The translations under genes and the position numbers were made by a program. A DNA stretch of 64,000 bases from NCBI RefSeq assembly GCF_014652415.1, contig NZ_BMYT01000003.1, positions 620,001 through 684,000 of the forward strand, in the 5' to 3' direction. Positions 7,977 through 19,353 of this stretch are shown in pieces; position 1 is the stretch's first letter; each line of letters begins with the position of its first letter. Source of the stretch: Affinundibacterium macrobrachii. GTDB lineage: Bacteria > Pseudomonadota > Gammaproteobacteria > Burkholderiales > Burkholderiaceae_D. The notes below the pieces were generated by a model. The model had not been told where the DNA came from. It saw nothing but the letters and a program-made list of their open reading frames with translations, and did not search any database.

Positions 7977-8684
7977 TCAGCTTGATGTCGAAATCACTGC
8001 GTTCTTTCTAGGACGTCCTCGAGATACCGGTTCAACGCGCCGTTCAGTTAGTTTAGCCATTTCTGCCTTGAAGGTGGCAGAACCGAGAACCCATGCTTTA
8101 TTCGTCGCATCATTAATCGCTTGCAAAAGTGTTGACGACAAACCATTCTCAAGCAATTGACGGTAGGCTGCTTCGCGTTGAAATGGCGTATTCCCCAAGC
8201 CCCAATACATCGCATGATCGGCCAACAATGGATCAGTACGCATCCCCAAATGATGCTGGCAGCTCGACCACCAATAACTGCTCGGCTCTTGCACCAAATG
8301 CTGACGAACCGCCATCTCTTCTAACATGACACAACAGGGCAAAAAGTATTGGCTTGATTCCAGCACCGTCGCCTTAAATCTACCCTGCCACAGGAAACCA
8401 CTACGCTGATACTTCGCATTAAAGTAAGGCACGTAATATCTTCCTAACCACTGCATCAATTTTCCCAAGCCAAGTTCGTCAGTGGGCGTTACTAATAAAT
8501 GAAAGCGATTCGGCAATATGGTGTAGGCATGTACTTGCACCGCGAATTGTTTCGCCCCTGACTTGAGCCAATCTAAAAAAACTTGATAATCTGCAGTATC
8601 GACAAAAATGATTTTATTATCGATACCAGCTTGGGTAATGTGATGAGCCTGATGTGGAATTACCAGACGCGGAAGTCTTGCCAT
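7977..8684 (-). CDS. Degenerate REP-associated tyrosine transposase (RAYT, Y1_Tnp/IS200 family)
   Basis: A 235-residue protein starting at MARLPRLVIPHQAHHITQ, a classic RAYT opening. The family pattern is clear: 'VHAYTILPNRFHLLVTP' near residues 47-63, 'LMQWLGRYYVPYFN', 'GFLWQGRFKATVLES', 'YWWSS'. In active relatives the middle reads NHVHLL (the HUH metal site) and the catalytic Tyr lies in 'RYIELNPVRAG'. Here the first His is Arg (NRFHLL), and the Tyr segment reads 'CVMLEEMAVRQ', with Met in the place of Tyr. Both active-site elements are therefore missing although the frame is intact. It is likely a decayed or repurposed transposase. Confidence 0.88.
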   Translation of the reverse strand: MARLPRLVIPHQAHHITQAGIDNKIIFVDTADYQVFLDWLKSGAKQFAVQVHAYTILPNRFHLLVTPTDELGLGKLMQWLGRYYVPYFNAKYQRSGFLWQGRFKATVLESSQYFLPCCVMLEEMAVRQHLVQEPSSYWWSSCQHHLGMRTDPLLADHAMYWGLGNTPFQREAAYRQLLENGLSSTLLQAINDATNKAWVLGSATFKAEMAKLTERRVEPVSRGRPRKNAVISTSS

Positions 8685-9078
8685 GATGAGTGTTTTGCAA
8701 AGCCGATTTAATTGGGGACATTGTAGTAGAAAATGCTCGCCATGGGTCAACATCAGCGCCAAAGACATCCTCCTCGTAAAGGATAGGCATACTCGGCAAA
8801 GCCGCTCTTAACATAGCAATTAATATAAAAGTTAATGCACTCACAGTGCCAACCTCGGGTCGATTTATCCACACATAGTGCGGAGCGCGTCTACGCGTTT
8901 CACGCACGATATCAAACAGCGTTAATCGTGCCTTCTCTGCATCCAAACACTCAACTACATAGGCAGAATCTCGCCACGTGCCAAGCAACATACTTTCTTG
9001 ATTCGACGCTGTCGATGTTAACAAGCGCTGACCAAGTTCTGCTAGTGGCGGCACAATCAATAGTATCTTTGTTTTCAT
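8617..9078 (-). pseudogene. Truncated protein resembling a B12-binding domain, broken by the RAYT locus
   Basis: The frame starts with ATG at 9078 (MKTKILLIVPPLAEL) and gives about 110 plausible residues. A hydrophobic first strand, 'CLDAEKARLTLFDIVRE', 'RRAPHYVWINRPEVG' and 'PSMPILYEEDVFGAD' follow the alternating strand/helix order of cobalamin-binding domains found at the N-terminus of radical SAM proteins. The remaining residues run into low-quality sequence overlapping the RAYT start. No radical SAM domain follows. I read it as a 5' remnant of a longer gene whose 3' part was lost, perhaps when the RAYT arrived. The family call is tentative. Confidence 0.42.
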
Positions 9079-9335
9079 AAAGCACCTTTAAGAGAAATAG
9101 GCAGGAACTATAGAAAACCTATGTGATAAAACGATGTGTTTGCTGTGAGCTTGGAGTGAGCTTGAAGTGATGCCGCATTGAGCTTGCAATGTACATATGA
9201 GCAAATCGATATACCTAAACTTTTGAACCTTACTCAAAGCGCGAAGATACTCAAGTTAAGTTGGCGCGAATATTGCATCAAACTTTGCATATCTCGTTTT
9301 AAATGTGTCGTCTCGATCCATCTTTGGAGTCATAC

Positions 9336-9983
9336 TTGTCTGATCTGCATGCTTCAAGTTTAAAAATAGTCGTCATTAATACGATAACGTCAGCATCTGG
9401 GCAACACGATCAAGATGCGATCGCATTACAAAGACAAATGACGCGCTCGCGCGATTTGCGTATAGGCTTGTTACAAGCGGGTTATAACATCATCGCCTCG
9501 ATCCCCGGCGATATGTACTTGGTTGATCGCTTAACCCAGTTGCAACCCGATATGATCATTATTGATGCCGAGTCCGATGCACGCGATGTATTGGAAGAAT
9601 TGGTGCTAGTCAGTCGTGATGCGCCGCGCCCTATCGTCTTATTTACCGAAGAGGACAATCCCTCACAATTGGCGTCCGCAATGGCAGTCGGCGTCTCGGC
9701 TTACGTCGTCGCAGGGCTGCAAGTCGAGCGTGTCAAACCTGTGCTAGAAGTCGCTGTTGCGAGATTTCAAGCTGACCAAAAATTACGTACAGAACTGCAC
9801 GATACCAAAAATAAACTAGCAGAACGCAAGACCATAGAACGTGCCAAAGGCTTGCTGATGGCACGCCATCAACTCAGTGAAAACGATGCCTATCAACGCC
9901 TGCGAAAACAAGCGATGGAAAAAAATCTGAAACTAGTTGAGCTCGCACAGCGTATCTTAGATGTCGCTGATTTATTGGGATAA
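9336..9983 (+). CDS. nasT: NasT-like ANTAR-domain antiterminator of nitrate assimilation
   Basis: A response-regulator-like protein with a C-terminal ANTAR RNA-binding domain. The N-terminal half is a pseudo-receiver domain ('LQPDMIIIDAESDARDVLEEL', 'RPIVLFTEEDN'). The last 60 residues carry the ANTAR signature 'LAERKTIERAKGLLMARHQ', then 'ENDAYQRLRKQAM' and 'LVELAQRILDVADLL'. I prefer the TTG at 9336 as start, because GGAG at 9326-9329 is well spaced from it; an ATG at 9303 has no visible ribosome-binding site. In characterised systems NasT binds tandem hairpins in the nas leader and prevents termination, and the nitrate sensor NasS holds it back. The hairpin and terminator are present directly downstream; a NasS gene is not. 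Confidence 0.9.
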   Translation: MSDLHASSLKIVVINTITSASGQHDQDAIALQRQMTRSRDLRIGLLQAGYNIIASIPGDMYLVDRLTQLQPDMIIIDAESDARDVLEELVLVSRDAPRPIVLFTEEDNPSQLASAMAVGVSAYVVAGLQVERVKPVLEVAVARFQADQKLRTELHDTKNKLAERKTIERAKGLLMARHQLSENDAYQRLRKQAMEKNLKLVELAQRILDVADLLG

Positions 9984-9996
9984 GCGGTGACACAGT

Positions 9997-10013
9997 TTGG
10001 TGCAATGCACCAA
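9997..10013. promoter_or_regulatory. NtrC-like palindrome upstream of the nas promoter
   Basis: TTGGTGCA at 9997-10004 and TGCACCAA at 10006-10013 form a perfect 8-bp inverted repeat around one base. The half-sites GGTGCA and TGCACC are those of the NtrC consensus (TGCACC-N5-GGTGCA), but in the reverse order, so two overlapping imperfect sites are possible. It lies about 85-100 bases before the sigma-54 -24 element, a usual enhancer distance. Confidence 0.5.
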
Positions 10014-10095
10014 GTTGGCATCCAAAGCAGTGCAGTAAGATAGTAAAAATCTTATCAACAGCACCCTTTTAAGCTGAAACTCCGACAGAACCAGT

Positions 10096-10111
10096 TGGCA
10101 CACAACTTGCA
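10096..10111 (+). promoter_or_regulatory. Sigma-54 (-24/-12) promoter of the nrt-nir-nas operon
   Basis: TGGCAC (10096-10101), five bases, then TTGCA (10107-10111) matches the sigma-54 consensus, with GG and GC exactly ten bases apart. The predicted start of transcription is near 10122, which makes a leader of about 160 bases before nrtA that begins at the first hairpin. This fits nitrogen-limitation control through NtrC. Confidence 0.85.
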
Positions 10112-10124
10112 AAGAAAAGCTTAA

Positions 10125-10170
10125 GTACCGTTTTGGTACACCACGAAAACTTGCCAACGGCGGCAATTTT
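10125..10170 (+). ncRNA. ANTAR-binding tandem hairpins in the nrtA leader
   Basis: P1: GTACC 10125-10129 pairs with GGTAC 10135-10139 around a five-base loop. P2: TTGCC 10151-10155 pairs with GGCAA 10162-10166 around the hexaloop AACGGC, extended by GAAAA/TTTTC with one bulged C. P2 shows A at loop position 1 and G at position 4, the hallmark of ANTAR target RNAs; P1 deviates in loop size. Both lie between the predicted transcription start and the terminator. Confidence 0.72.
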
Positions 10171-10179
10171 CACAAGACA

Positions 10180-10230
10180 AAGGCGTCTTCCTACCTACTC
10201 CAATGAGTGCGGTAGTAAGACGCCTTTTTT
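10180..10230 (+). terminator. Leader terminator (attenuator) before nrtA
   Basis: AAGGCGTCTT at 10180-10189 pairs with AAGACGCCTT at 10217-10226, with further CTAC/GTAG pairing inside, followed by a run of six T ending at 10230. It sits 52 bases before the nrtA start and downstream of a consensus promoter, so read-through must be controlled. The adjacent NasT-type protein and hairpins explain how. Confidence 0.88.
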
Positions 10231-10282
10231 CGTTCTGACTTTGAAATTTATCATTTGAATACCATCACGCTGGAGTCTGATC

Positions 10283-11626
10283 ATGCATAAGCAAAATAAG
10301 TCCATCCTCAAACCGAATGAAACAGGTGCTCTCAATGAAAACTTTGCCACAGAACGCAAGACCGAACTCTCAGCCAAAAATCAAACTCGCCGTGAATTTA
10401 TACAAAGCGCCAGCAGCGTGGTCGGTCTTGGAGCAAGCAGCATGTTAGGCCTAAGTTCGATGGGAGCGGCCAGCACTGCGTGGGCAGCGGGCTCAGACAA
10501 GCCTGAAAAAGAAGAAGTCAAAATCGGTTTCATTCCGCTCACCGATTGCGCCTCGGTGGTGATCGCTGCCGTGATGGGTTTCGATAAAAAATATGGCATC
10601 AAAATCGTGCCCAGCAAAGAATCCTCTTGGGCCAGCGTACGCGATAAATTGGTCAATGGCGAACTCGATGCAGCGCACGTTTTATACGGTCTCGTGTATG
10701 GAGTACAACTCGGCATCGGTGGCCCCAAGAAGGATATGAATATCCTGATGACGCTCAACAATAATGGTCAAGCGATCACGTTATCGAAAAAGCTAGCTGA
10801 CAAAGGCGCCGTTGATGGCGCAGGTCTTGCAAAACTCATGGCGCGTGAAAAGCGGGAGTACACATTCGCGCAAACCTTCCCTACTGGCACCCACGCAATG
10901 TGGTTGTATTACTGGTTAGCGGCACACGGTATCAACCCGATGAAAGACGCGAAAGTGATCACCGTACCACCGCCACAAATGGTGGCGAATATGCGGGTCG
11001 ATAATATGGACGGCTATTGCGTTGGTGAGCCTTGGAATCACCGTGCGGTGGCAGATGGCATCGGTATTACTGCTGCGACCACGCAAGATATTTGGCGCGA
11101 TCATCCTGAGAAAGTCTTAGGATGCACCGCAGAATTTTCGCAAAAATATCCCAACACCGCACGCGCCTTGATCGCGGCGATTCTCGATGCGAGTCGTTGG
11201 ATAGATGCCTCGCTCATGAATAAACAAAAGATGGCAGAAATCATCGCTGAGAAATCCTATGTCAACACTTCTGTTGATGTGATTAATCAACGCATTTTGG
11301 GACGCTATCAAAATGGTTTAGGCAAGACTTGGGATGATCCTCACTACATGAAATTCTTCAATGATGGTGCGGTGAATTTTCCTTACTTATCAGACGGTAT
11401 GTGGTTCTTAACCCAGCACAAGCGTTGGGGCTTACTCAAAACAGATCCAGATTATCTGGGGGTGGCAAAAGCCGTCAATCGTATCGACATTTACAAAGAT
11501 GGTGCAACGCTGGCGAAAGTCAACGTACCGAAAGATCCTATGCGTAAGAGCAAGCTCATCGACGGCACAGTATGGGACGGACAAAACCCTGCAGCCTATG
11601 CCGCCGCATTTAAGATCAAAGTCTAA
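10283..11626 (+). CDS. nrtA: NrtA, nitrate ABC transporter substrate-binding protein (Tat signal)
   Basis: A 447-residue binding protein of the NrtA/CmpA family. It starts with a twin-arginine signal: RREFIQ at residues 36-41, then a hydrophobic stretch ending near AWAA at about 69. The mature protein shows 'VKIGFIPLTDCASVVIA', 'SWASVRDKLVNGELDAAH', 'FPTGTHAMWLYYWL' and 'GYCVGEPWNHRAV', all typical of NrtA. It captures nitrate in the periplasm for NrtB and NrtC. The secretion signal argues against it being the cytoplasmic sensor NasS. It is the first gene of the operon, downstream of a sigma-54 promoter and attenuator. Confidence 0.93.
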   Translation: MHKQNKSILKPNETGALNENFATERKTELSAKNQTRREFIQSASSVVGLGASSMLGLSSMGAASTAWAAGSDKPEKEEVKIGFIPLTDCASVVIAAVMGFDKKYGIKIVPSKESSWASVRDKLVNGELDAAHVLYGLVYGVQLGIGGPKKDMNILMTLNNNGQAITLSKKLADKGAVDGAGLAKLMAREKREYTFAQTFPTGTHAMWLYYWLAAHGINPMKDAKVITVPPPQMVANMRVDNMDGYCVGEPWNHRAVADGIGITAATTQDIWRDHPEKVLGCTAEFSQKYPNTARALIAAILDASRWIDASLMNKQKMAEIIAEKSYVNTSVDVINQRILGRYQNGLGKTWDDPHYMKFFNDGAVNFPYLSDGMWFLTQHKRWGLLKTDPDYLGVAKAVNRIDIYKDGATLAKVNVPKDPMRKSKLIDGTVWDGQNPAAYAAAFKIKV

Positions 11627-11635
11627 GGATTAGCG

Positions 11636-12568
11636 ATGACTACTCTGCTTTCAACTTATTCGGCAACCGATTCAGCTAGTGCTGACAACAACCCGCCGGA
11701 AAAAACCAAAACTGCAACGGCAAGCATACAAGTAATCAAGAAGGACACAATGATGGCCAAGCCCTCTGTATTCGCTAGTCTTACAATCAAGCTCAAAACG
11801 CTCGCTTTCAAGCTCTTACCGCAATTTCTGGGCTTAGCAATGCTGGTGTTGATTTGGGCAATTATTGCAGAGAAAAATACCTCGCTGCCCTCACCTTTGC
11901 TGACTCTGCAAGAAGCCATCAAATTATTTTCTGATCCCTTCTATCAAAATGGTCCGAATGATCAAGGCATAGGGTGGAATATCTATGCGTCCTTAAAACG
12001 CGTCGCGGTCGGCTTTGGTCTTGCCGCTGTGATTGGCATTCCACTTGGTTTCATGATTGGTCGCTTTAGTTTTATGGCGGGCATGTTTAATCCGATTATT
12101 AGCTTGCTCAAACCGGTCTCACCCTTGGCGTGGTTGCCGATAGGCTTGTTGGTATTCAAAGCCGCGCATCCAGCAGCGATTTGGTCGATTTTTATTTGCT
12201 CGATTTGGCCTATGGTCATCAATACCGCCATCGGTGTGCAACGCGTACCGCAAGATTATATGAATGTCGCACGCGTTTTAAATCTGTCTGAATGGAAGAT
12301 TCTGACGCGGATTTTATTACCTAGCGTCCTACCATATATGTTGACGGGCGTGCGTCTGGCAATTGGCACCGCGTGGTTGGTAATCGTGGCAGCAGAGATG
12401 CTCACCGGTGGCGTCGGTATCGGCTTCTGGGTGTGGGATGAGTGGAATAACTTAAACGTACCGCACATCATTATTGCAATTGTGGTGATTGGATTCGTCG
12501 GCCTGCTATTAGAACAAGCACTGGTGGCGATGGCACGTGCGGTCACCTATGAAGAAACAGGAGCGTGA
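11636..12568 (+). CDS. nrtB: NrtB, nitrate ABC transporter permease
   Basis: A 310-residue inner-membrane permease of the NrtB/SsuC type. A polar N-terminal extension of about 55 residues precedes the first membrane segment ('FLGLAMLVLIWAIIAE'). The inner-membrane-component signature lies around 'PISLLKPVSPLAWLPIGLLV' and 'EWKILTRILLPSVLPYMLTG'. The start at 11636 is backed by AAGGA in the preceding spacer; an internal ATG at about 11750 would remove the extension. The stop overlaps the next gene's start region, which implies translational coupling. Confidence 0.92.
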   Translation: MTTLLSTYSATDSASADNNPPEKTKTATASIQVIKKDTMMAKPSVFASLTIKLKTLAFKLLPQFLGLAMLVLIWAIIAEKNTSLPSPLLTLQEAIKLFSDPFYQNGPNDQGIGWNIYASLKRVAVGFGLAAVIGIPLGFMIGRFSFMAGMFNPIISLLKPVSPLAWLPIGLLVFKAAHPAAIWSIFICSIWPMVINTAIGVQRVPQDYMNVARVLNLSEWKILTRILLPSVLPYMLTGVRLAIGTAWLVIVAAEMLTGGVGIGFWVWDEWNNLNVPHIIIAIVVIGFVGLLLEQALVAMARAVTYEETGA

Positions 12569-12570
12569 AT

Positions 12571-13401
12571 ATGGAAAAGCTAAACACTGCCGAAGCAAAC
12601 GATAAAAAGTATATCGAAGTCCAACATGTAGATATGCGTTTCGACACCAAGAAGGGCAGTTTTCATGCGTTACGCGATATCAATTTGCGGATTGCGAGAG
12701 GTGAATTCATTAGCCTGATTGGTCACTCTGGTTGCGGCAAATCCACTTTACTCAATTTGATTGCGGGCTTAACCAGCGCGACTTCTGGTGCGCTGTTATG
12801 CGCGAATCGTGAAATCGCTGGTCCGTCGCCAGAACGCGGTGTGGTGTTTCAAAATCATTCGCTGCTGCCTTGGCTCACCTGTTTTGAAAACGTCTATTTA
12901 GCAGTGGAACGCGTATTCGCGGCCACAGAAAATAAAGCGGAATTAATCAATCGCACCCGCAATGCCTTGGCACTGGTGGGTTTGACTGCGGCGGATAAAA
13001 AGCGCCCACATGAAATCTCGGGGGGCATGAAACAACGCGTTGGCATCGCTCGCGCGCTCGCCATCGAACCGAAAGTTCTATTAATGGATGAGCCTTTCGG
13101 CGCACTCGATGCACTGACGCGCGCGCACCTTCAAGATGAGTTACTCAAGATCGTCGCCAAGACGCAATCGACGGTGGTGATGGTCACGCATGATGTCGAT
13201 GAAGCTGTACTCCTGTCTGACAAAATCGTGATGCTTACCAACGGCCCAGCCGCGACTATCGGAGAAGTGCTATCGGTGGAATTAGCACGACCACGTGAAC
13301 GGGTCGCGCTAGCCAACGATGCGCAATATGCGAAATATCGCAGCGCGGTGCTGGAGTTTTTATATCACCGCCAATCGCATCCTAGCAAAGAAGTCGCTTA
13401 A
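12571..13401 (+). CDS. nrtC: NrtC/NrtD-type nitrate ABC transporter ATP-binding protein
   Basis: A 276-residue ATPase. Walker A is GHSGCGKST near residue 50, the signature is 'EISGGMKQRVGIARAL', Walker B is 'VLLMDEPFGALD', and the switch His is in 'VMVTHDVDEAVLL'. I chose the ATG at 12571, with AGGAG at 12558-12562 at proper distance, over the GTG at 12565. It is NrtD-like in length, without the NrtA-like C-terminal domain of cyanobacterial NrtC. It powers nitrate import with NrtB. A 39-base gap leads to nirB. Confidence 0.92.
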   Translation: MEKLNTAEANDKKYIEVQHVDMRFDTKKGSFHALRDINLRIARGEFISLIGHSGCGKSTLLNLIAGLTSATSGALLCANREIAGPSPERGVVFQNHSLLPWLTCFENVYLAVERVFAATENKAELINRTRNALALVGLTAADKKRPHEISGGMKQRVGIARALAIEPKVLLMDEPFGALDALTRAHLQDELLKIVAKTQSTVVMVTHDVDEAVLLSDKIVMLTNGPAATIGEVLSVELARPRERVALANDAQYAKYRSAVLEFLYHRQSHPSKEVA

Positions 13402-13440
13402 ACCAGTCACACTAGACCCGAATTACCAAGAGAAAACATC

Positions 13441-15870
13441 ATGAAAAAACTCAAACTCGTCATGGTCGGCAATGGAATGGCAGGTGTGCGCACCTTAGAA
13501 GAATTGCTGAAAATTTCGCCGGATTTGTACGACATCACGGTCTTTGGCGCAGAACCTTATGCCAACTACAATCGCATTTTGTTGTCGCCCGTATTGGCAG
13601 GCGAACAGACGATCAAAGACATTATGCTCAATGATGTCGACTGGTATGCAGAGAATAATATCAATCTCCATCTGGGAAAAAAGATCGTCAAAATTGATCG
13701 TTATAAACGCGTCGTGATCGCCGAAAACGGTATGGAAACCGAGTACGATCGACTACTGATCGCCACCGGCTCTACACCATTCATGTTGCCCGTGCCGGGC
13801 AAAGATTTACAAGGCGTGATTGCCTATCGCGACATCCACGATACCAATGCCATGATCGCTGCAGCGGCAGAGCATACCCATGCGGTTGTCATCGGTGGCG
13901 GACTACTCGGTCTAGAAGCCGCGAATGGTTTAAAGATGCGCGGCATGAACGTATCAGTTGTACATTTACCCGCATGGCTGATGGATAGGCAGCTCGATGT
14001 AACGGCTGGCAAGATGCTGCAAAAATCCTTAGAAGATCGCGGGCTCAATTTTCTATTGGAAAAAAATACCGAAGCCCTGCTCGGTGATGAAAACGGTCAC
14101 GTCAAAGCCATTCGTTTTTCTGATGGTTTAGAAATTCCTACGCAGCTAGTCGTCATGGCAGTGGGCATTCGCCCGAATACTACCTTAGCAGAATCCGCCG
14201 GGCTGTATTGCAATCGCGGTTTGATTGTGAACGACACCATGCAAACTTATGACCCGCGTATTTATGCGGTCGGCGAATGCGTAAATCATCGCGGCACAGT
14301 GTATGGCTTGGTCGCACCTTTATTCGAGATGGCAAAAGTTTGCGCAAATCATTTGGCAAATTTTGGCATTGGTCGTTATCAAGGATCAGTCACCTCGACC
14401 AAACTCAAAGTGACCGGCATTGATCTTTTTTCGGCTGGTGATTTCTCCGGCGGTAAAGATACCGAAGAAATTATCTTGTCTGATCCTATCGGCGGCGTCT
14501 ACAAAAAACTCGTGCTGAAAGACGACAAACTCATCGGCGCTTGTCTGTATGGTGACACCGTCGATGGCAGTTGGTATTTCAAATTGCTACGAGAGGGTAA
14601 AAACATCGCCGAGATACGTGATTCGCTGATGTTCGGGGAATCAAATACTGGCGACGTTGGCCATGAAGGTCACACCAAAGCCGCAGCGATGCCAGACAAT
14701 GCTGAAGTCTGCGGTTGCAATGGCGTATGCAAAGGGACGATCGTCAAAGCGATTAAAGAAAAGGGATTATTTACCTTAGAAGATGTACGCAAACACACCA
14801 AGGCTTCGGCATCCTGCGGTTCGTGCACAGGCTTGGTCGAACAAATCATTATGTTCACAGCAGGTGGCGATTATTCAGCTACACCGAAAGCCAAGGCCAT
14901 GTGCTCATGTACCGACCACTCGCATCATGCAGTGCGTGAAGCGATCAAAGCCAATCATTTATTGACCGTGGCAGCGGTTCAACAATTCATGGAATGGCGC
15001 ACGCCGAATGGTTGCGCCAGTTGCCGCCCTGCTTTGAATTACTATCTCATTTCAACTTGGCCGAAAGAAGCAGTGGATGATCCGCAATCGCGCTACATCA
15101 ACGAGCGCTCCCATGCAAATATCCAAAAAGATGGGACTTACTCGGTCATTCCGCGTATGTGGGGTGGCGAAACCAATGCTTCCGAGTTACGTAGGATTGC
15201 CGACGTCGTCGACAAATTTAAGATCCCCACCGTCAAAGTCACTGGCGGTCAGCGTATCGATTTACTCGGCGTGAAGAAGGAAGACTTACGCGCAGTTTGG
15301 CAAGATCTGGGCATGCCATCCGGCCTCGCCTATGCCAAAGGGTTGCGCACGGTGAAGACTTGCGTGGGCAGCGAATGGTGCCGCTTTGGCACGCAAAATT
15401 CGACGTTGATGGGGCAACAATTAGAACGCGAATTGGCACGCATGTACGCGCCACACAAAGTCAAACTCGCAGTATCGGGTTGCCCGCGTAATTGTGCTGA
15501 AGCCGGAATTAAAGACGTTGGTGTGATCGGCGTCGACTCTGGTTGGGAAGTGTATGTGGGCGGGAATGGTGGCATCAAAACGGAAGTCGCTCAATTCTTA
15601 GTCAAGCTCAAGACCCACCAAGAAGTCATGGAATATACAGGCGCATTTCTACAACTGTATCGCGAAGAAGGTTGGTACTTAGAACGTACTGTGCACTACA
15701 TCGCCCGCGTTGGCCTTGATTACGTCAAACAACAAATTTTAGAAAATGCTGCGCGACGTAAAGAACTGTATCAACGCTTGCTGTTCTCGCTGGAAGGTGA
15801 AGCGGATCCTTGGCATGAACCGGAGAAGGCGCAAGTGGATACGCGGCAGTTTGAGCGCTTGTCGGGCTAG
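13441..15870 (+). CDS. nirB: NirB, assimilatory NADH-nitrite reductase large subunit
   Basis: An 809-residue cytoplasmic enzyme that reduces nitrite to ammonium with NirD. It opens with an FAD/NAD(P)H pyridine-nucleotide reductase domain (VMVGNGMAGVRTLEELL; second Rossmann motif 'VVIGGGLLGLEAANGL' near residue 150). Two BFD-like [2Fe-2S] segments follow (CGCNGVC near 423 with CGSC near 459; a second with CASC near 525). The siroheme/[4Fe-4S] domain then carries Cys near 640 and 646 (CVGSEWCRFG) and 680 and 684 (CPRNCAEAG). All expected cofactor ligands are present. Length is close to the family's norm of about 810-850. Confidence 0.95.
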   Translation: MKKLKLVMVGNGMAGVRTLEELLKISPDLYDITVFGAEPYANYNRILLSPVLAGEQTIKDIMLNDVDWYAENNINLHLGKKIVKIDRYKRVVIAENGMETEYDRLLIATGSTPFMLPVPGKDLQGVIAYRDIHDTNAMIAAAAEHTHAVVIGGGLLGLEAANGLKMRGMNVSVVHLPAWLMDRQLDVTAGKMLQKSLEDRGLNFLLEKNTEALLGDENGHVKAIRFSDGLEIPTQLVVMAVGIRPNTTLAESAGLYCNRGLIVNDTMQTYDPRIYAVGECVNHRGTVYGLVAPLFEMAKVCANHLANFGIGRYQGSVTSTKLKVTGIDLFSAGDFSGGKDTEEIILSDPIGGVYKKLVLKDDKLIGACLYGDTVDGSWYFKLLREGKNIAEIRDSLMFGESNTGDVGHEGHTKAAAMPDNAEVCGCNGVCKGTIVKAIKEKGLFTLEDVRKHTKASASCGSCTGLVEQIIMFTAGGDYSATPKAKAMCSCTDHSHHAVREAIKANHLLTVAAVQQFMEWRTPNGCASCRPALNYYLISTWPKEAVDDPQSRYINERSHANIQKDGTYSVIPRMWGGETNASELRRIADVVDKFKIPTVKVTGGQRIDLLGVKKEDLRAVWQDLGMPSGLAYAKGLRTVKTCVGSEWCRFGTQNSTLMGQQLERELARMYAPHKVKLAVSGCPRNCAEAGIKDVGVIGVDSGWEVYVGGNGGIKTEVAQFLVKLKTHQEVMEYTGAFLQLYREEGWYLERTVHYIARVGLDYVKQQILENAARRKELYQRLLFSLEGEADPWHEPEKAQVDTRQFERLSG

Positions 15871-15950
15871 GATTATTAACACCCGATTTCTCACCTAAAC
15901 AGCACTCTAGATAAGAGCTTCTACAAAAATTTGAAGTTCGATGAAAGTCC

Positions 15951-16057
15951 CCTCCCCTTCAAGGGGAATCGGTCAGACGAAAAAACCTGTTTCTTCGTCT
16001 GACCGATTCTAAGCTGCATGATTGCAGCGCAGTGGACGGGCTAGGGTGGGGATAGGT
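15951..16057. repeat. REP-like repeat interrupted by a 70-base palindromic segment
   Basis: The outer parts (15951-15967 and 16038-16057) together match the uninterrupted copy at 37511-37555, read in reverse: CCTTCAAGGGGA joined to GGGCTAGGGTGGGGAT. Between them lie 70 extra bases (15968-16037). The split lies in the 330-base gap between nirB and nirD. Confidence 0.65.
15966..16009. repeat. 16-bp perfect inverted repeat inside the interrupted REP
   Basis: GAATCGGTCAGACGAA at 15966-15981 and its exact reverse complement at 15994-16009 enclose a 12-base loop. The stem is long and stable, without a T-run. It forms most of the extra segment that splits the REP-like element. Confidence 0.8.
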
Positions 16058-16091
16058 TGAATGAAGAAAGCTGATAGCGCTCAATTGTGGT

Positions 16092-16130
16092 AACCCATCC
16101 CCATCCCAACCTTCCCCTTGAAGGGGAAGG
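16092..16130. repeat. Second REP-like copy before nirD, opposite orientation
   Basis: The sequence around 16093-16130 reads ACCCATCCCCATCCC, then a palindrome centred on CCCCTTGAAGGGG. It has the orientation of the copy at 37511 and is inverted relative to the interrupted copy at 15951-16057. The two facing copies could fold into one large structure in the nirB-nirD transcript. Confidence 0.65.
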
Positions 16131-16199
16131 AGCATTAATCGAAACTCAAGTTTAGGTAGATGCTGGTGCATAAAAATCTTTGATTGAAAAGGAAAACCT

Positions 16200-16544
16200 A
16201 TGTCCAAAGAATGGCAAATCATCTGTCGCATAGACGACATTCCTGTACTCGGTGCGCGCGTAGTCAAACGTCCAGCGCAAACCGATGTCGCTATCTTCAG
16301 AAACAAGGAAGACAAAGTCTTCGCATTATTGGACAAATGTCCGCACAAAGGCGGCCCCTTATCGCAAGGCATCGTCTTCGGTGAAAAAGTCGCCTGCCCT
16401 TTGCACAACTGGAATATCGAATTACCGACTGGTTGCGCCGTCTCGCCTGACGAAGGTTGCACGCAAAAATTTAGTGTCAAAGTGGAAGCCGATCAAGTGT
16501 ATTTATGTACGCAGGAATTACTCACGTTAGCGATCGATTCTTAA
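16200..16544 (+). CDS. nirD: NirD, nitrite reductase small subunit (Rieske-type)
   Basis: A 114-residue protein that partners NirB. The Rieske [2Fe-2S] ligands are visible as 'CPHKGGPLSQG' near residues 47-57 and 'CPLHNWNIELPTG' near 66-78, giving the CxH...CxxH pattern. Assimilatory NirD proteins of this length often keep or lose these ligands; here all four are kept. The start at 16200 has AAGGAAAA just upstream. It is unusual that 330 bases of repeats separate it from nirB, since the pair is normally tightly linked. Confidence 0.93.
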   Translation: MSKEWQIICRIDDIPVLGARVVKRPAQTDVAIFRNKEDKVFALLDKCPHKGGPLSQGIVFGEKVACPLHNWNIELPTGCAVSPDEGCTQKFSVKVEADQVYLCTQELLTLAIDS

Positions 16545-16578
16545 CGCCAATCAACGCCTACGATCAAGGTTAAATACG

Positions 16579-19353
16579 ATGCTAGAAACTAAATCTACCT
16601 GTTGTTATTGCGGCGTTGGTTGCGGTGTGATCATCGAATCCGATGGCGCTCAAGTTATCGGGGTGCGTGGTGATCCGGCGCATCCTGCGAATTTTGGGAA
16701 GTTGTGCAGCAAGGGTAGTAATTTACATTTGACGGCTCAGCCACTATTGCAACAACAGGTACGCGCACTGTATCCCGAAATGCGCACTGCACGCAATCAA
16801 GAAAGACAGCGTGTGAATTGGGATGTTTGCTTAGAAACGTTGGCAGATAAATTCGCAGATTGCATACAAACGCACGGTGTAGACAGCATCGGCTTCTACA
16901 TCTCCGGTCAATTACTGACCGAGGATTATTACGTCTTCAACAAACTAGCAAAAGGCTTGATCGGTACCAATAACATCGACAGTAATTCACGGCTTTGCAT
17001 GTCAAGCGCAGTCGCTGGTTATAAGCAAAGTTTGGGTGCCGATGCGCCGCCTTGCAGTTATGAAGATATCGAACTAGCGGACTTAATTTTTATCGCTGGC
17101 TCGAATACCGCTTATGCTCATCCAATTTTATATCGCCGCATAGAACAGGCGCGTGAGAACAATCCCACTCTCAAAGTAATCGTGGTTGATCCGCGTCGTA
17201 CCGATACCGCTCGAGACGCTGATTTGCATCTGGCGATTTTACCCGGCACTGATGTGGCGCTGTTTCACGGCATGCTGCATTTATGTTTGTGGGAAGATTT
17301 AATCGATACCCAATTTATCGCAGAACATACTGAAGGTTTTGCTGAACTCAAACAAACAGTGCGTGATTTCACGCCCGCATTTACTGCGCAAATTTGCGGC
17401 ATCGCTGAAAAAGATTTGATTCAAGCGGCGCGTTGGTTTGGGCAAAGCAAAGCGGCATTATCGCTGTATTGCCAAGGCCTAAATCAATCGAGCGCAGGTA
17501 CTGCAAAAAATAGCGCCTTGATTAATCTGCATCTGGCGACTGGGCAAATCGGCAAACCCGGTGCTGGTCCTTTTTCTTTAACTGGACAGCCAAATGCGAT
17601 GGGCGGTCGTGAAGTAGGTGGTATGGCAAATTTACTGTCAGCACATCGCGATTTGAACAATCCTGAACATCGTGCTGAAGTTGCCGCCATGTGGGAAATA
17701 CCTGAGGTTCCCGAACAAGCTGGCAAAACTGCGGTGGAGATGTTTGAAGCCGTGCGTACAGGTAAGATCAAAATTATTTGGATCGTCTGTACCAATCCAG
17801 CGCAATCGATGCCGGATCAAAATTTAATACGCGCAGCATTAGAAAAAGCAGAGCTGGTGATTGTGCAAGAGGCATATCACAACACCGCGACGGTAGCGTA
17901 TGCAGATGTACTTTTGCCTGCTTCGACCTGGTCAGAAAAGTCCGGTACCGTAACCAACTCTGAACGTAGAATCTCTCGCGTACGTGCTGCGTTACCAGCC
18001 ATCGGGGAAGCCCGCCACGACTGGCAAATTGCCACACAGTTCGCACAAAAATTGGGACGAAAATTAAATAAAACAAAACCCGATTTTGCTTACGACCATC
18101 CTGAGACGATTTGGAATGAACACCGTGACAGCACTGCGGGACGGGATCTCGACATCAATGGTTTGTCTTATACATTCCTAGAAAATCATGGGCCGCAACA
18201 ATGGCCCTTCCCTGCTGGTGCCACCAAAGGCAAAAATCGTCTATATCAAGACCATCAATTCGCCAATACAAGTGGTAAAGCACGCTTTATCAATTGCAGC
18301 TATGTAGCACCTGCTGAAAAAATCACACCACGACACCCATTTGCTTTAAATACTGGACGCTTGCGTGATCAGTGGCATGGCATGAGTCGCACCGGTTTGG
18401 TCGCGCAACTGTATGCCCATGCGCCTGAGCCTTGCATAGAAATGGCAACTCAAGATATGCAACGCAGCTTCATCAATGATGGTGATCTTGTCGAAGTCAG
18501 TAATCAACGAGGGACACAAATCCTGATCGCAAAAGCGAGTGCGCAACTCAAGGCTGGGCAGAGCTTTATCGCCATGCATTGGGGTGAAGAGTTTGTCTCG
18601 GGTTGCCAAGCGAATCAAGCCCTATTCGGTGTGAATAGCTTATGTAATCCGCGCTTTGATCCTATTTCTAAACAGCCAGAGCTAAAACACAGTGCGGTCA
18701 AAATCAGCAAAATTGACTTGGCATGGCAATTCCTCGCCTGTGCTTGGGTTGATTCCTCACAGATCTTCAATGTACAACAAACGCTGCGCCGCTATTATCC
18801 TCACTTCACTTACGCGAGTTGCGTGCTATTTGGACGCGAGCGTCAAGGTCTATTATTTCGTGCTGCGCATAGCATTGCGGTTGCAGCGGAGGTTATACAC
18901 GCGATTGAACGCCTACTTGGCTTGCATGGCGAGTTTGTGTTGCAATACGACGATATCAAACGTGGGACTGGGCGCAAAATTTTAATTGAGACGAAACAAA
19001 CTACACTTCCCCAAAAATGTATCGCGGGTTTTTCTTTAGCAGGCGATATTGCAGCAGAAAATTGGCTCAAACAATTGCTATTAGATGAAGAAGCGCTAAC
19101 GATTACACCCACCTTGCTCGCCCGATCTCAGCCTGCCGTGAGCAAGGTCTCTGGTGGCCAACAAGATAATCAAGTCGTGTGTACATGTTTCAATATCAAG
19201 GCGCAACAAATCAAACATTCGCTAAGCTTGCATAACGGAGATGAGAAACAGCGACTTAGTCAGTTACAACAAGCTTTAGCTTGTGGTACCAATTGCGGGT
19301 CTTGCATACCTCAACTAAAGCAGTTCGTGCGCGAGGCCGCGCTTACTGATTAA
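16579..19353 (+). CDS. nasA: NasA, assimilatory nitrate reductase catalytic subunit
   Basis: A 924-residue molybdopterin oxidoreductase that reduces nitrate to nitrite in the cytoplasm. The N-terminus has the [4Fe-4S] cysteines (CCYCGVGCGV near residues 8-17 and LCSKGSN near 43). The molybdopterin domains follow, with 'LTGQPNAMGGREVGGMANLL' and 'GRLRDQWHGMSRTG' as family landmarks. The last 60 residues form a BFD-like [2Fe-2S] domain (CTCFNIK near 869 and CGTNCGSC near 905-912), typical of longer NasA proteins. It lies 34 bases after nirD and ends the operon; a separate reductase component (NasB-like) is not present. Confidence 0.94.
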   Translation: MLETKSTCCYCGVGCGVIIESDGAQVIGVRGDPAHPANFGKLCSKGSNLHLTAQPLLQQQVRALYPEMRTARNQERQRVNWDVCLETLADKFADCIQTHGVDSIGFYISGQLLTEDYYVFNKLAKGLIGTNNIDSNSRLCMSSAVAGYKQSLGADAPPCSYEDIELADLIFIAGSNTAYAHPILYRRIEQARENNPTLKVIVVDPRRTDTARDADLHLAILPGTDVALFHGMLHLCLWEDLIDTQFIAEHTEGFAELKQTVRDFTPAFTAQICGIAEKDLIQAARWFGQSKAALSLYCQGLNQSSAGTAKNSALINLHLATGQIGKPGAGPFSLTGQPNAMGGREVGGMANLLSAHRDLNNPEHRAEVAAMWEIPEVPEQAGKTAVEMFEAVRTGKIKIIWIVCTNPAQSMPDQNLIRAALEKAELVIVQEAYHNTATVAYADVLLPASTWSEKSGTVTNSERRISRVRAALPAIGEARHDWQIATQFAQKLGRKLNKTKPDFAYDHPETIWNEHRDSTAGRDLDINGLSYTFLENHGPQQWPFPAGATKGKNRLYQDHQFANTSGKARFINCSYVAPAEKITPRHPFALNTGRLRDQWHGMSRTGLVAQLYAHAPEPCIEMATQDMQRSFINDGDLVEVSNQRGTQILIAKASAQLKAGQSFIAMHWGEEFVSGCQANQALFGVNSLCNPRFDPISKQPELKHSAVKISKIDLAWQFLACAWVDSSQIFNVQQTLRRYYPHFTYASCVLFGRERQGLLFRAAHSIAVAAEVIHAIERLLGLHGEFVLQYDDIKRGTGRKILIETKQTTLPQKCIAGFSLAGDIAAENWLKQLLLDEEALTITPTLLARSQPAVSKVSGGQQDNQVVCTCFNIKAQQIKHSLSLHNGDEKQRLSQLQQALACGTNCGSCIPQLKQFVREAALTD

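Follow-up and report, generated by a model that had tools for sequence, protein, structure and literature searches.

Transcription antitermination by ANTAR-domain proteins has a published mechanism for EutV, and the two-hairpin RNA motif is recognised in NasT systems as well (PMC8934654, PMC3369931, PMC7496416). In such target RNAs the first hairpin (P1) is folded in both states and the second (P2) is embedded in the terminator (PMC8934654, PMC3369931). In Pseudomonas, transcription of the NalA leader (nirBD operon) is described as starting by sigma-54/NtrC and as being under NasT control (PMC12830290, citing Romeo 2012 and Nie 2024), and the two-layer principle of sigma-54 plus NasT is therefore not new. 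Nitrate is reported to act through NasS, a relative of NrtA without a signal sequence, and a Paracoccus nasS mutant shows constitutive expression of the pathway (PMC3795266). Here we describe a 64,000-nucleotide (nt) stretch of Affinundibacterium macrobrachii DNA (RefSeq assembly GCF_014652415.1, contig NZ_BMYT01000003.1, positions 620,001 to 684,000, forward strand), called the window below. The 299 bases between its nasT and nrtA genes very probably hold a sigma-54/NtrC-type promoter and an ANTAR antitermination leader that together gate the nitrate assimilation operon. An earlier note on this DNA had proposed a sigma-54 start followed by ANTAR-type attenuation. Conservation and covariation in relatives support that outline well; the parts of the leader are assigned differently.

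The leader segment 10120-10235 (plus strand, like the other features unless noted) folds at -45.6 kcal/mol (z -6.6; none of 200 shuffled sequences as good) into hairpin H1 at 10125-10139, hairpin H2 at 10145-10171 and a terminator stem at 10179-10227. When the RNA was truncated to 10120-10190, as it would emerge from the polymerase, H1 and H2 were joined by a third hairpin, H3, at 10174-10189 (AAGAC-AAAGGC-GUCUU). H2 has an outer stem around a core at 10151-10166 (UUGCC-AACGGC-GGCAA). Both hexaloops, AACGGC and AAAGGC, carry A at the first and G at the fourth position (A1/G4). The intrinsic terminator extends over 10179-10230, with a 5' arm that begins with 10179-10189, a 3' arm that ends at 10227 and a T-run at 10225-10230; a simple terminator scan (loops of 3-8, unbroken stems) did not list it. 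Positions 10179-10189 are also the loop and 3' arm of H3, and H3 and the terminator are mutually exclusive. By itself H3 has only modest stability (-3.8 kcal/mol, a value that 22 of 200 shuffles also reach), as one would expect if a protein has to stabilise it. H2 and H3 have the A1/G4 loops, the short fixed spacing and the terminator exclusivity of an ANTAR dual hexaloop. Read from its sequence, the pair forms a canonical ANTAR dual hexaloop in which H3 is the antiterminator, and NasT is predicted to bind it. The earlier note was right about the strong terminator ahead of nrtA and about the AACGGC hairpin at 10151-10166, which it called P2. Set against the published architecture, that hairpin corresponds to P1, and the note had overlooked P2, the antiterminator H3.

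The leader was compared over two sets of loci: 30 in the window's genus, taken as its best nasT matches, and 40 in other genera of the family, hand-picked for genus spread and not a random sample. At most 70 leaders were thus examined from the 140 genomes with a match to R1, a model of H2 plus H3 built from the genus alignment and used at E<=0.001. L109, which has no H2/H3 anchor, was left out wherever 69 leaders are counted. The distance from H2 loop to H3 loop is 22-25 nt in all 69. In 66 of the 70 leaders a downstream arm can pair with the loop and 3' arm of H3 at 10 of 11 positions, as against 3.1 (largest 7) with shuffled downstream DNA. At eight or more pairs plus a T-run all 70 leaders qualify, against 21.1 of 70 shuffled, and the shuffle control shows this criterion to be loose. 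In the H2 plus H3 alignment of 29 genus leaders (A1, L014 left out of the 30), 87.8% of the cells are paired and the covariation score is 0.305 versus 0.156 after shuffling, a value reached in none of 500 shuffles; all slid controls scored lower. Across the 69 leaders H2 is 92% paired, with 16 two-sided cells versus 4.5. The arms of H3 change together from AGAC/GUCU to GGAC/GUCC. The 5' arm of H3 lies outside the terminator, and its co-change with the 3' arm therefore argues for H3 itself. R1 matched 140 of the 392 genomes of the family and 15 of the 369 of the class (the window's own genome is counted in both), and six of the 16 class loci did not look leader-like by eye. In the own genome R1 matched one place only, under filters that lose weak matches. 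The earlier note had staked its proposal on conservation of the hairpins and the terminator in related genomes, and both are conserved.

The sigma-54 promoter motif named in the earlier note was confirmed. The -24/-12 element TGGCACACAACTTGC at 10096-10110 matches TGGCAC-N5-TTGC exactly and is the only exact match in the window. With one mismatch allowed there are 9 matches versus 7.1 expected, so that looser matches are uninformative by themselves. The strict pattern TGGCAY-N5-TTGC stands before the hairpins in 66 of 69 leaders (the window included), against a shuffle mean of 0.15; in L016 the motif was absent by the pattern used and a fixed segment was taken instead. Sigma-54 transcription usually starts 11-13 bases past the -12 element, and by this promoter geometry alone we infer a start near 10122. 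A sigma-70 promoter was considered and rejected (one weak match found, 1.0 expected).

Further upstream, the 17-nt palindrome TTGGTGCA-A-TGCACCAA that the earlier note called NtrC-like is present at 9997-10013. The usual NtrC site is TGCACC-N5-GGTGCA; in this palindrome the half-sites face away from each other (GGTGCA..TGCACC). It is part of a group of back-to-back NtrC-type half sites at 9988-10013, a putative NtrC binding region that is weak here. Many other leaders have TGCRYC-N5-GGTGCR sites, which often lie some 70-130 bases ahead of the promoter. The best NtrC-site scores are 9, 10, 11 and 12 of 12 in 10, 18, 30 and 11 leaders, respectively; scores of 10-12 were found in 59 of 69 leaders and in 94 of 345 shuffles, which peak at 9. 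As judged from these sites, NtrC control is likely across the family and only plausible in the window species.

Taken as a regulatory switch, the locus would work as follows. Under nitrogen limitation RNA polymerase would start near 10122, and H1, H2 and H3 would fold as the leader emerges. Without NasT the downstream arm would invade H3, since the loop and 3' arm of H3 double as the terminator's 5' arm; transcription would then stop near 10230. NasT would land on the H2 hexaloop and then hold H3 through its AAAGGC loop; the terminator would be blocked and the polymerase would enter nrtA.

Several results weigh against this reading. A1/G4 loops are found in H2 of 69/69 and in H3 of 68/69 leaders, counts that are partly circular because the loops served as anchors. 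H3 is near-invariant across the 69 family leaders and its covariation is weak (10 two-sided cells versus 6.4; 21 of 500 shuffles as good); the evidence becomes clearer with 11 class-level sequences added (alignment A5, from which six of 17 loci, L127-L130, L132 and L133, were left out, a leader-like H3 context not being seen there by eye), with 19 such cells versus 10.3 and no shuffle of 500 reaching the score. The H1 stem has two-sided changes at 5 of 6 pairs, among stems that had been selected for pairing. With 9 of 12, the best NtrC site of the window falls mid-range among the shuffles. Window-type NasT (above 240 bits) occurs without an adjacent R1 leader in genomes G045, G046, G084 and also G004; weak R1 matches in G020 and G040, two genus genomes without such a NasT, speak against a tight pairing of nasT and leader. 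Among the 43 genus genomes, 32 have both nasT and leader at R1 E<=1e-6, two nasT only, none the leader only and nine neither (Fisher p 1e-7); at E<=0.001 the counts are 33, 1, 2 and 7. This association speaks for the switch, but weakly, because the cut was chosen post hoc and the two are neighbours. The leader stays below threshold for two Rfam families that resemble it: it scores 32.3 bits for narK RNA (RF03032, gathering score 43.2) and 28.7 bits for P11 (RF00625, gathering score 70). None of the 14 narK RNA matches in 145 family genomes reached the gathering score, and in the wider class search the own genome had no P11 match. In Bradyrhizobium a NasT-type hairpin is predicted before narK, yet narK rose in a nasT mutant (PMC6759348).

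The remaining hairpin, H1 (10125-10139, GUACC-GUUUU-GGUAC), is present as the earlier note said, with a degenerate 5-nt loop. We took the best hairpin between promoter and H2 in each leader, with no loop criterion. Of the 69 leaders, 61 gave a hairpin. Its loop is six bases long in 48, and A1 and G4 are present in 43 of these. The A1/G4 hexaloop occurs in 13 of 15 genera. Shuffled segments gave 1.27 canonical H1 on average (largest 6), versus 43 in 62 testable segments; seven of the 69 leaders, all without H1, were left out of this test as the segment is too short. The count of 43 leaves out the upstream canonical H1 of L011, which the hairpin picker skipped. H1 is absent in eight leaders, with the promoter abutting H2 in seven of them, and two more have a weak hairpin. 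Degenerate loops are found in the window and L006 (GUUUU) and in L009 (CAAUC), and none of the ten g27-genus leaders with H1 has an A1/G4 hexaloop (seven have five-base loops). The closest relatives with an intact H1, L007 and L008 (NasT 95 and 92% identical), have the same stem with the loop AAAGCU, and the loop change in the window therefore looks recent. Much of the family thus has H1 as a third hairpin of the ANTAR type, and several lineages have lost or altered it. The H1 and H2 loops stand 25 to 138 nt apart, the H2 and H3 loops 22-25 nt, and this variable spacing points to an accessory role for H1. In L030 (genome G042) there is an insertion of about 100 nt between H1 and H2, with, by eye, a long imperfect inverted repeat in it.

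The earlier note had taken H1 and H2 together as the ANTAR dual hairpin, a variant target with a five-base P1 loop, on which nitrate would act through NasT. The conserved, covarying stem of H1 would fit this, as would the distance of 25-36 nt from H1 loop to H2 loop in 40 of the 43 canonical cases. It is nevertheless very improbable, no NasS having been found either, and H1 as P1 of the dual motif was rejected: H1 can be missing or weak altogether, its spacing to H2 is far looser than that of H2 to H3, and the terminator overlaps H3 and not H2. The variant target thus rested on a hairpin that is accessory, canonical in many relatives and degenerate here.

What H1 does is better considered under the H2 plus H3 switch. 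A successive-binding model has been published for ANTAR antitermination (PMC8934654), and under it H1 could load NasT earlier. H1 would then be an accessory loading hairpin in the relatives; in the window, its loop lost, it would probably be at most a 5' stabilising hairpin. Alternatively, the leader may be a plain NasT dual hexaloop as in NalA, its H1 merely a 5' hairpin protecting the RNA end, a reading that we consider quite possible, if at rather less than even chances. It agrees with the reported control of NalA by sigma-54/NtrC and NasT (PMC12830290) and with H1 stems kept without an A1/G4 hexaloop in the window, L006, L009 and ten g27 leaders, but leaves the A1/G4 hexaloop in 13 of 15 genera unexplained. 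It may be correct for the window species alone.

H1 and H2 also stay formed in the terminated fold. The terminated leader of about 109 nt, which keeps both, might be a sponge that titrates NasT, like EutX/Rli55, with H1 and H2 as its binding site. EutX has an additional single hexaloop (PMC8934654), and Rfam lists the related P11 as a small RNA whose consensus has two hexaloops besides H3. The window's own H1, having no A1/G4 hexaloop, fits poorly with such a role, and the single R1 match in the own genome (with the filters mentioned above) gives no known second target for the NasT so titrated. A sponge is thus unlikely.

The input signal is the least supported step. In the own genome (99.18% complete) the only NMT1_2 protein found is NrtA and NasS was not found, by a search that was positive in 12 of 14 control genomes. 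Of a NasS-NasT system, NasT with its C-terminal ANTAR domain is thus present and NasS was not detected. No ANTAR protein other than NasT was found in this genome, and NasT carries no NIT domain, so that the NIT-ANTAR fusion of NasR is not seen in it either; a genome search for NIT was empty, though it was positive in no control. At least one ANTAR protein was found in each of 40 other leader-bearing genomes checked (that family was searched in leader-bearing genomes). Window-type NasT is present in 34 of the 43 genus genomes; in 30 of the 34 no second NMT1_2 protein scores above 120 bits, and several are incomplete drafts. For 63 of the 70 leaders no NasS-like gene lies between nasT and leader, in loci that are short, so that a distant NasS is possible. 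In G022 and G060 nasT is followed at once by a NasS-like gene (Pfam-confirmed). In G060 the order is nasT, NasS-like gene, weak leader match, and nasS may plausibly have been lost from an arrangement of this kind. The earlier note had nitrate act through NasT. With no NasS found, and with NasS loss constitutive in Paracoccus (PMC3795266), the gene content does not bear this out.

Candidate signals are NrtA before its export, cyclic di-GMP (c-di-GMP), which is reported for Pseudomonas putida NasT (PMC12830290), or a ligand of the divergent receiver half of NasT. In the first case NrtA, exported folded through the twin-arginine (Tat) pathway, would sense nitrate in the cytoplasm for NasT in place of NasS. 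No other NMT1_2 protein was found, the N-terminus of NrtA reads from the sequence as a twin-arginine type signal, NasS is itself an NrtA relative without a signal sequence (PMC3795266), and nasT lies directly upstream and nrtA downstream of the leader in 63 of 70 cases (of the other loci, L107 has a NasS-like gene between, and nasT was not seen in six short ones). The idea is weakened by G046, a genome listed as 100% complete that has window-type NasT and one very weak NMT1_2 match (E 1.5e-5), although G046 has no R1 leader beside nasT and so may use NasT differently. We regard a sensor role of NrtA as distinctly unlikely. At the G046 locus (L181) the neighbours of the window-type NasT are, by eye, a narK-like transporter and a Ser/Thr kinase-like gene.

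NasT itself (nasT, 9303-9983, 226 amino acids) matches the ANTAR family PF03861 at 75.6 bits. No Response_reg domain was matched in Pfam; its N-terminal half is divergent receiver-like, with an insert after the first strand in an alignment of five proteins, and the nearest solved structures are 1s8n and 6wsh. The insert was considered as a substitute for NasS and dropped, since the G060 NasT has a similar insert and adjoins a NasS-like protein. In four g27 genomes (L171-L173 and L175/G068) the leader is present and the only ANTAR match lies elsewhere, in a frame of 425-470 amino acids. The G068 frame, the one scanned of the four, is a NIT-ANTAR protein, and a regulator swap on the same leader is possible in this genus. 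A link between regulator type and the g27 H1 loop was looked for and discarded, as 0 of 10 loops are A1/G4 with either regulator.

Downstream of the leader, nrtA (10283-11626) encodes a substrate-binding protein (PF13379, 350.7 bits) which takes its name from its context; its sole NCBIfam match is to the SsuA family, below threshold. The genes at 11636-19353 on the same strand encode a nitrate ATP-binding cassette (ABC) permease, an ATPase, NirB, a Rieske protein (NirD-like) and a molybdopterin oxidoreductase. The permease, ATPase and NirB each score above the NCBIfam cut-off. The oxidoreductase is probably the assimilatory nitrate reductase, with an NCBIfam score below the cut-off. A sigma-54-like element, TGGCGCGAATATTGC, is found at 9262-9276 just 5' of nasT; by a relaxed pattern such an element precedes nasT in seven loci of the genus, counting the window, and in 12 of 65 leader loci in all. 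On this pattern nasT expression itself may be under nitrogen control. Upstream of nasT, at 7977-8768 on the minus strand, lies an IS200-like (Y1) transposase-related reading frame.

The two Rfam families introduced above share much with the leader. The narK RNA consensus has a sigma-54 -24/-12 element (GGCaCagcucUUGC), H2 (CC AACGGC GG) and H3 (CGAC AAAGAC GUCG), and differs in having no room for H1. The P11 consensus contains UUGGCAC-N5-CUGC, the hexaloops AACGau, AuaGAA and AAAGGC and an overlapping terminator; it is like the window leader in its sigma-54-like element, its A1/G4-type hexaloops including AAAGGC and its terminator overlap, and differs in that in L136 it precedes a nirB-like gene (by eye) and not nrtA. 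P11 matched in nine of 185 class genomes, in one of them over the gathering score. In the class-level genome G611 the locus L125 has a NasS-like frame (by eye), nasT, the leader and a major-facilitator transporter; the leader there scores 55.1 bits for narK RNA, above the gathering score of 43.2, and the same genome has a P11 of 126.2 bits before a nirB-like gene, again with three A1/G4-type hexaloops. By their consensus sequences both families resemble a sigma-54 promoter joined to an ANTAR target, which in P11 has three hexaloops; P11 would correspond to the described NalA leader. This reading gives narK RNA and P11 a likely common function, with promoter DNA apparently modelled as RNA in both.

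A broader proposal joins these points: in this family, a NasT uncoupled from NasS that stands alone and senses a different signal by its divergent, insert-bearing receiver half, a relay in which H1 loads NasT and H2 then hands it on to the antiterminator H3, and narK RNA and P11 as two fragments of the same sigma-54 plus ANTAR element. We offer it as a tentative possibility. ANTAR targets would then include relays of three hexaloops, which invite comparison with the successive-binding model. At least 32 of the 43 genus genomes retain leader and NasT despite the apparent loss of NasS, which raises the question of NasT control without a nitrate sensor, given that Paracoccus is reported to be constitutive without NasS. 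A three-hexaloop NasT leader, narK RNA as an ANTAR target and NasT without NasS are unmentioned in the literature searched, which comprised passages and few subscription papers.

The mechanism is of a known kind. With the ANTAR targets of eut in Enterococcus and nasF in Klebsiella the leader shares two A1/G4 hexaloops, a short linker and a second hairpin that excludes the terminator; what it adds is the upstream H1, which is canonical in 43 of the 69 leaders, and a sigma-54 promoter immediately before the hairpins. The window leader and NalA have in common a sigma-54/NtrC-type start, a leader RNA, a terminator, antitermination by NasT and nitrate assimilation genes. They differ in leader sequence, in the first gene (nrtA here), in the H1 loop and in that nitrate acts through NasS there, while no NasS was found in the window genome. 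As far as the accessible literature goes, the new features are a widespread but dispensable third hexaloop, the apparent absence of NasS and the reading of narK RNA and P11 as relatives of the same promoter-leader element.

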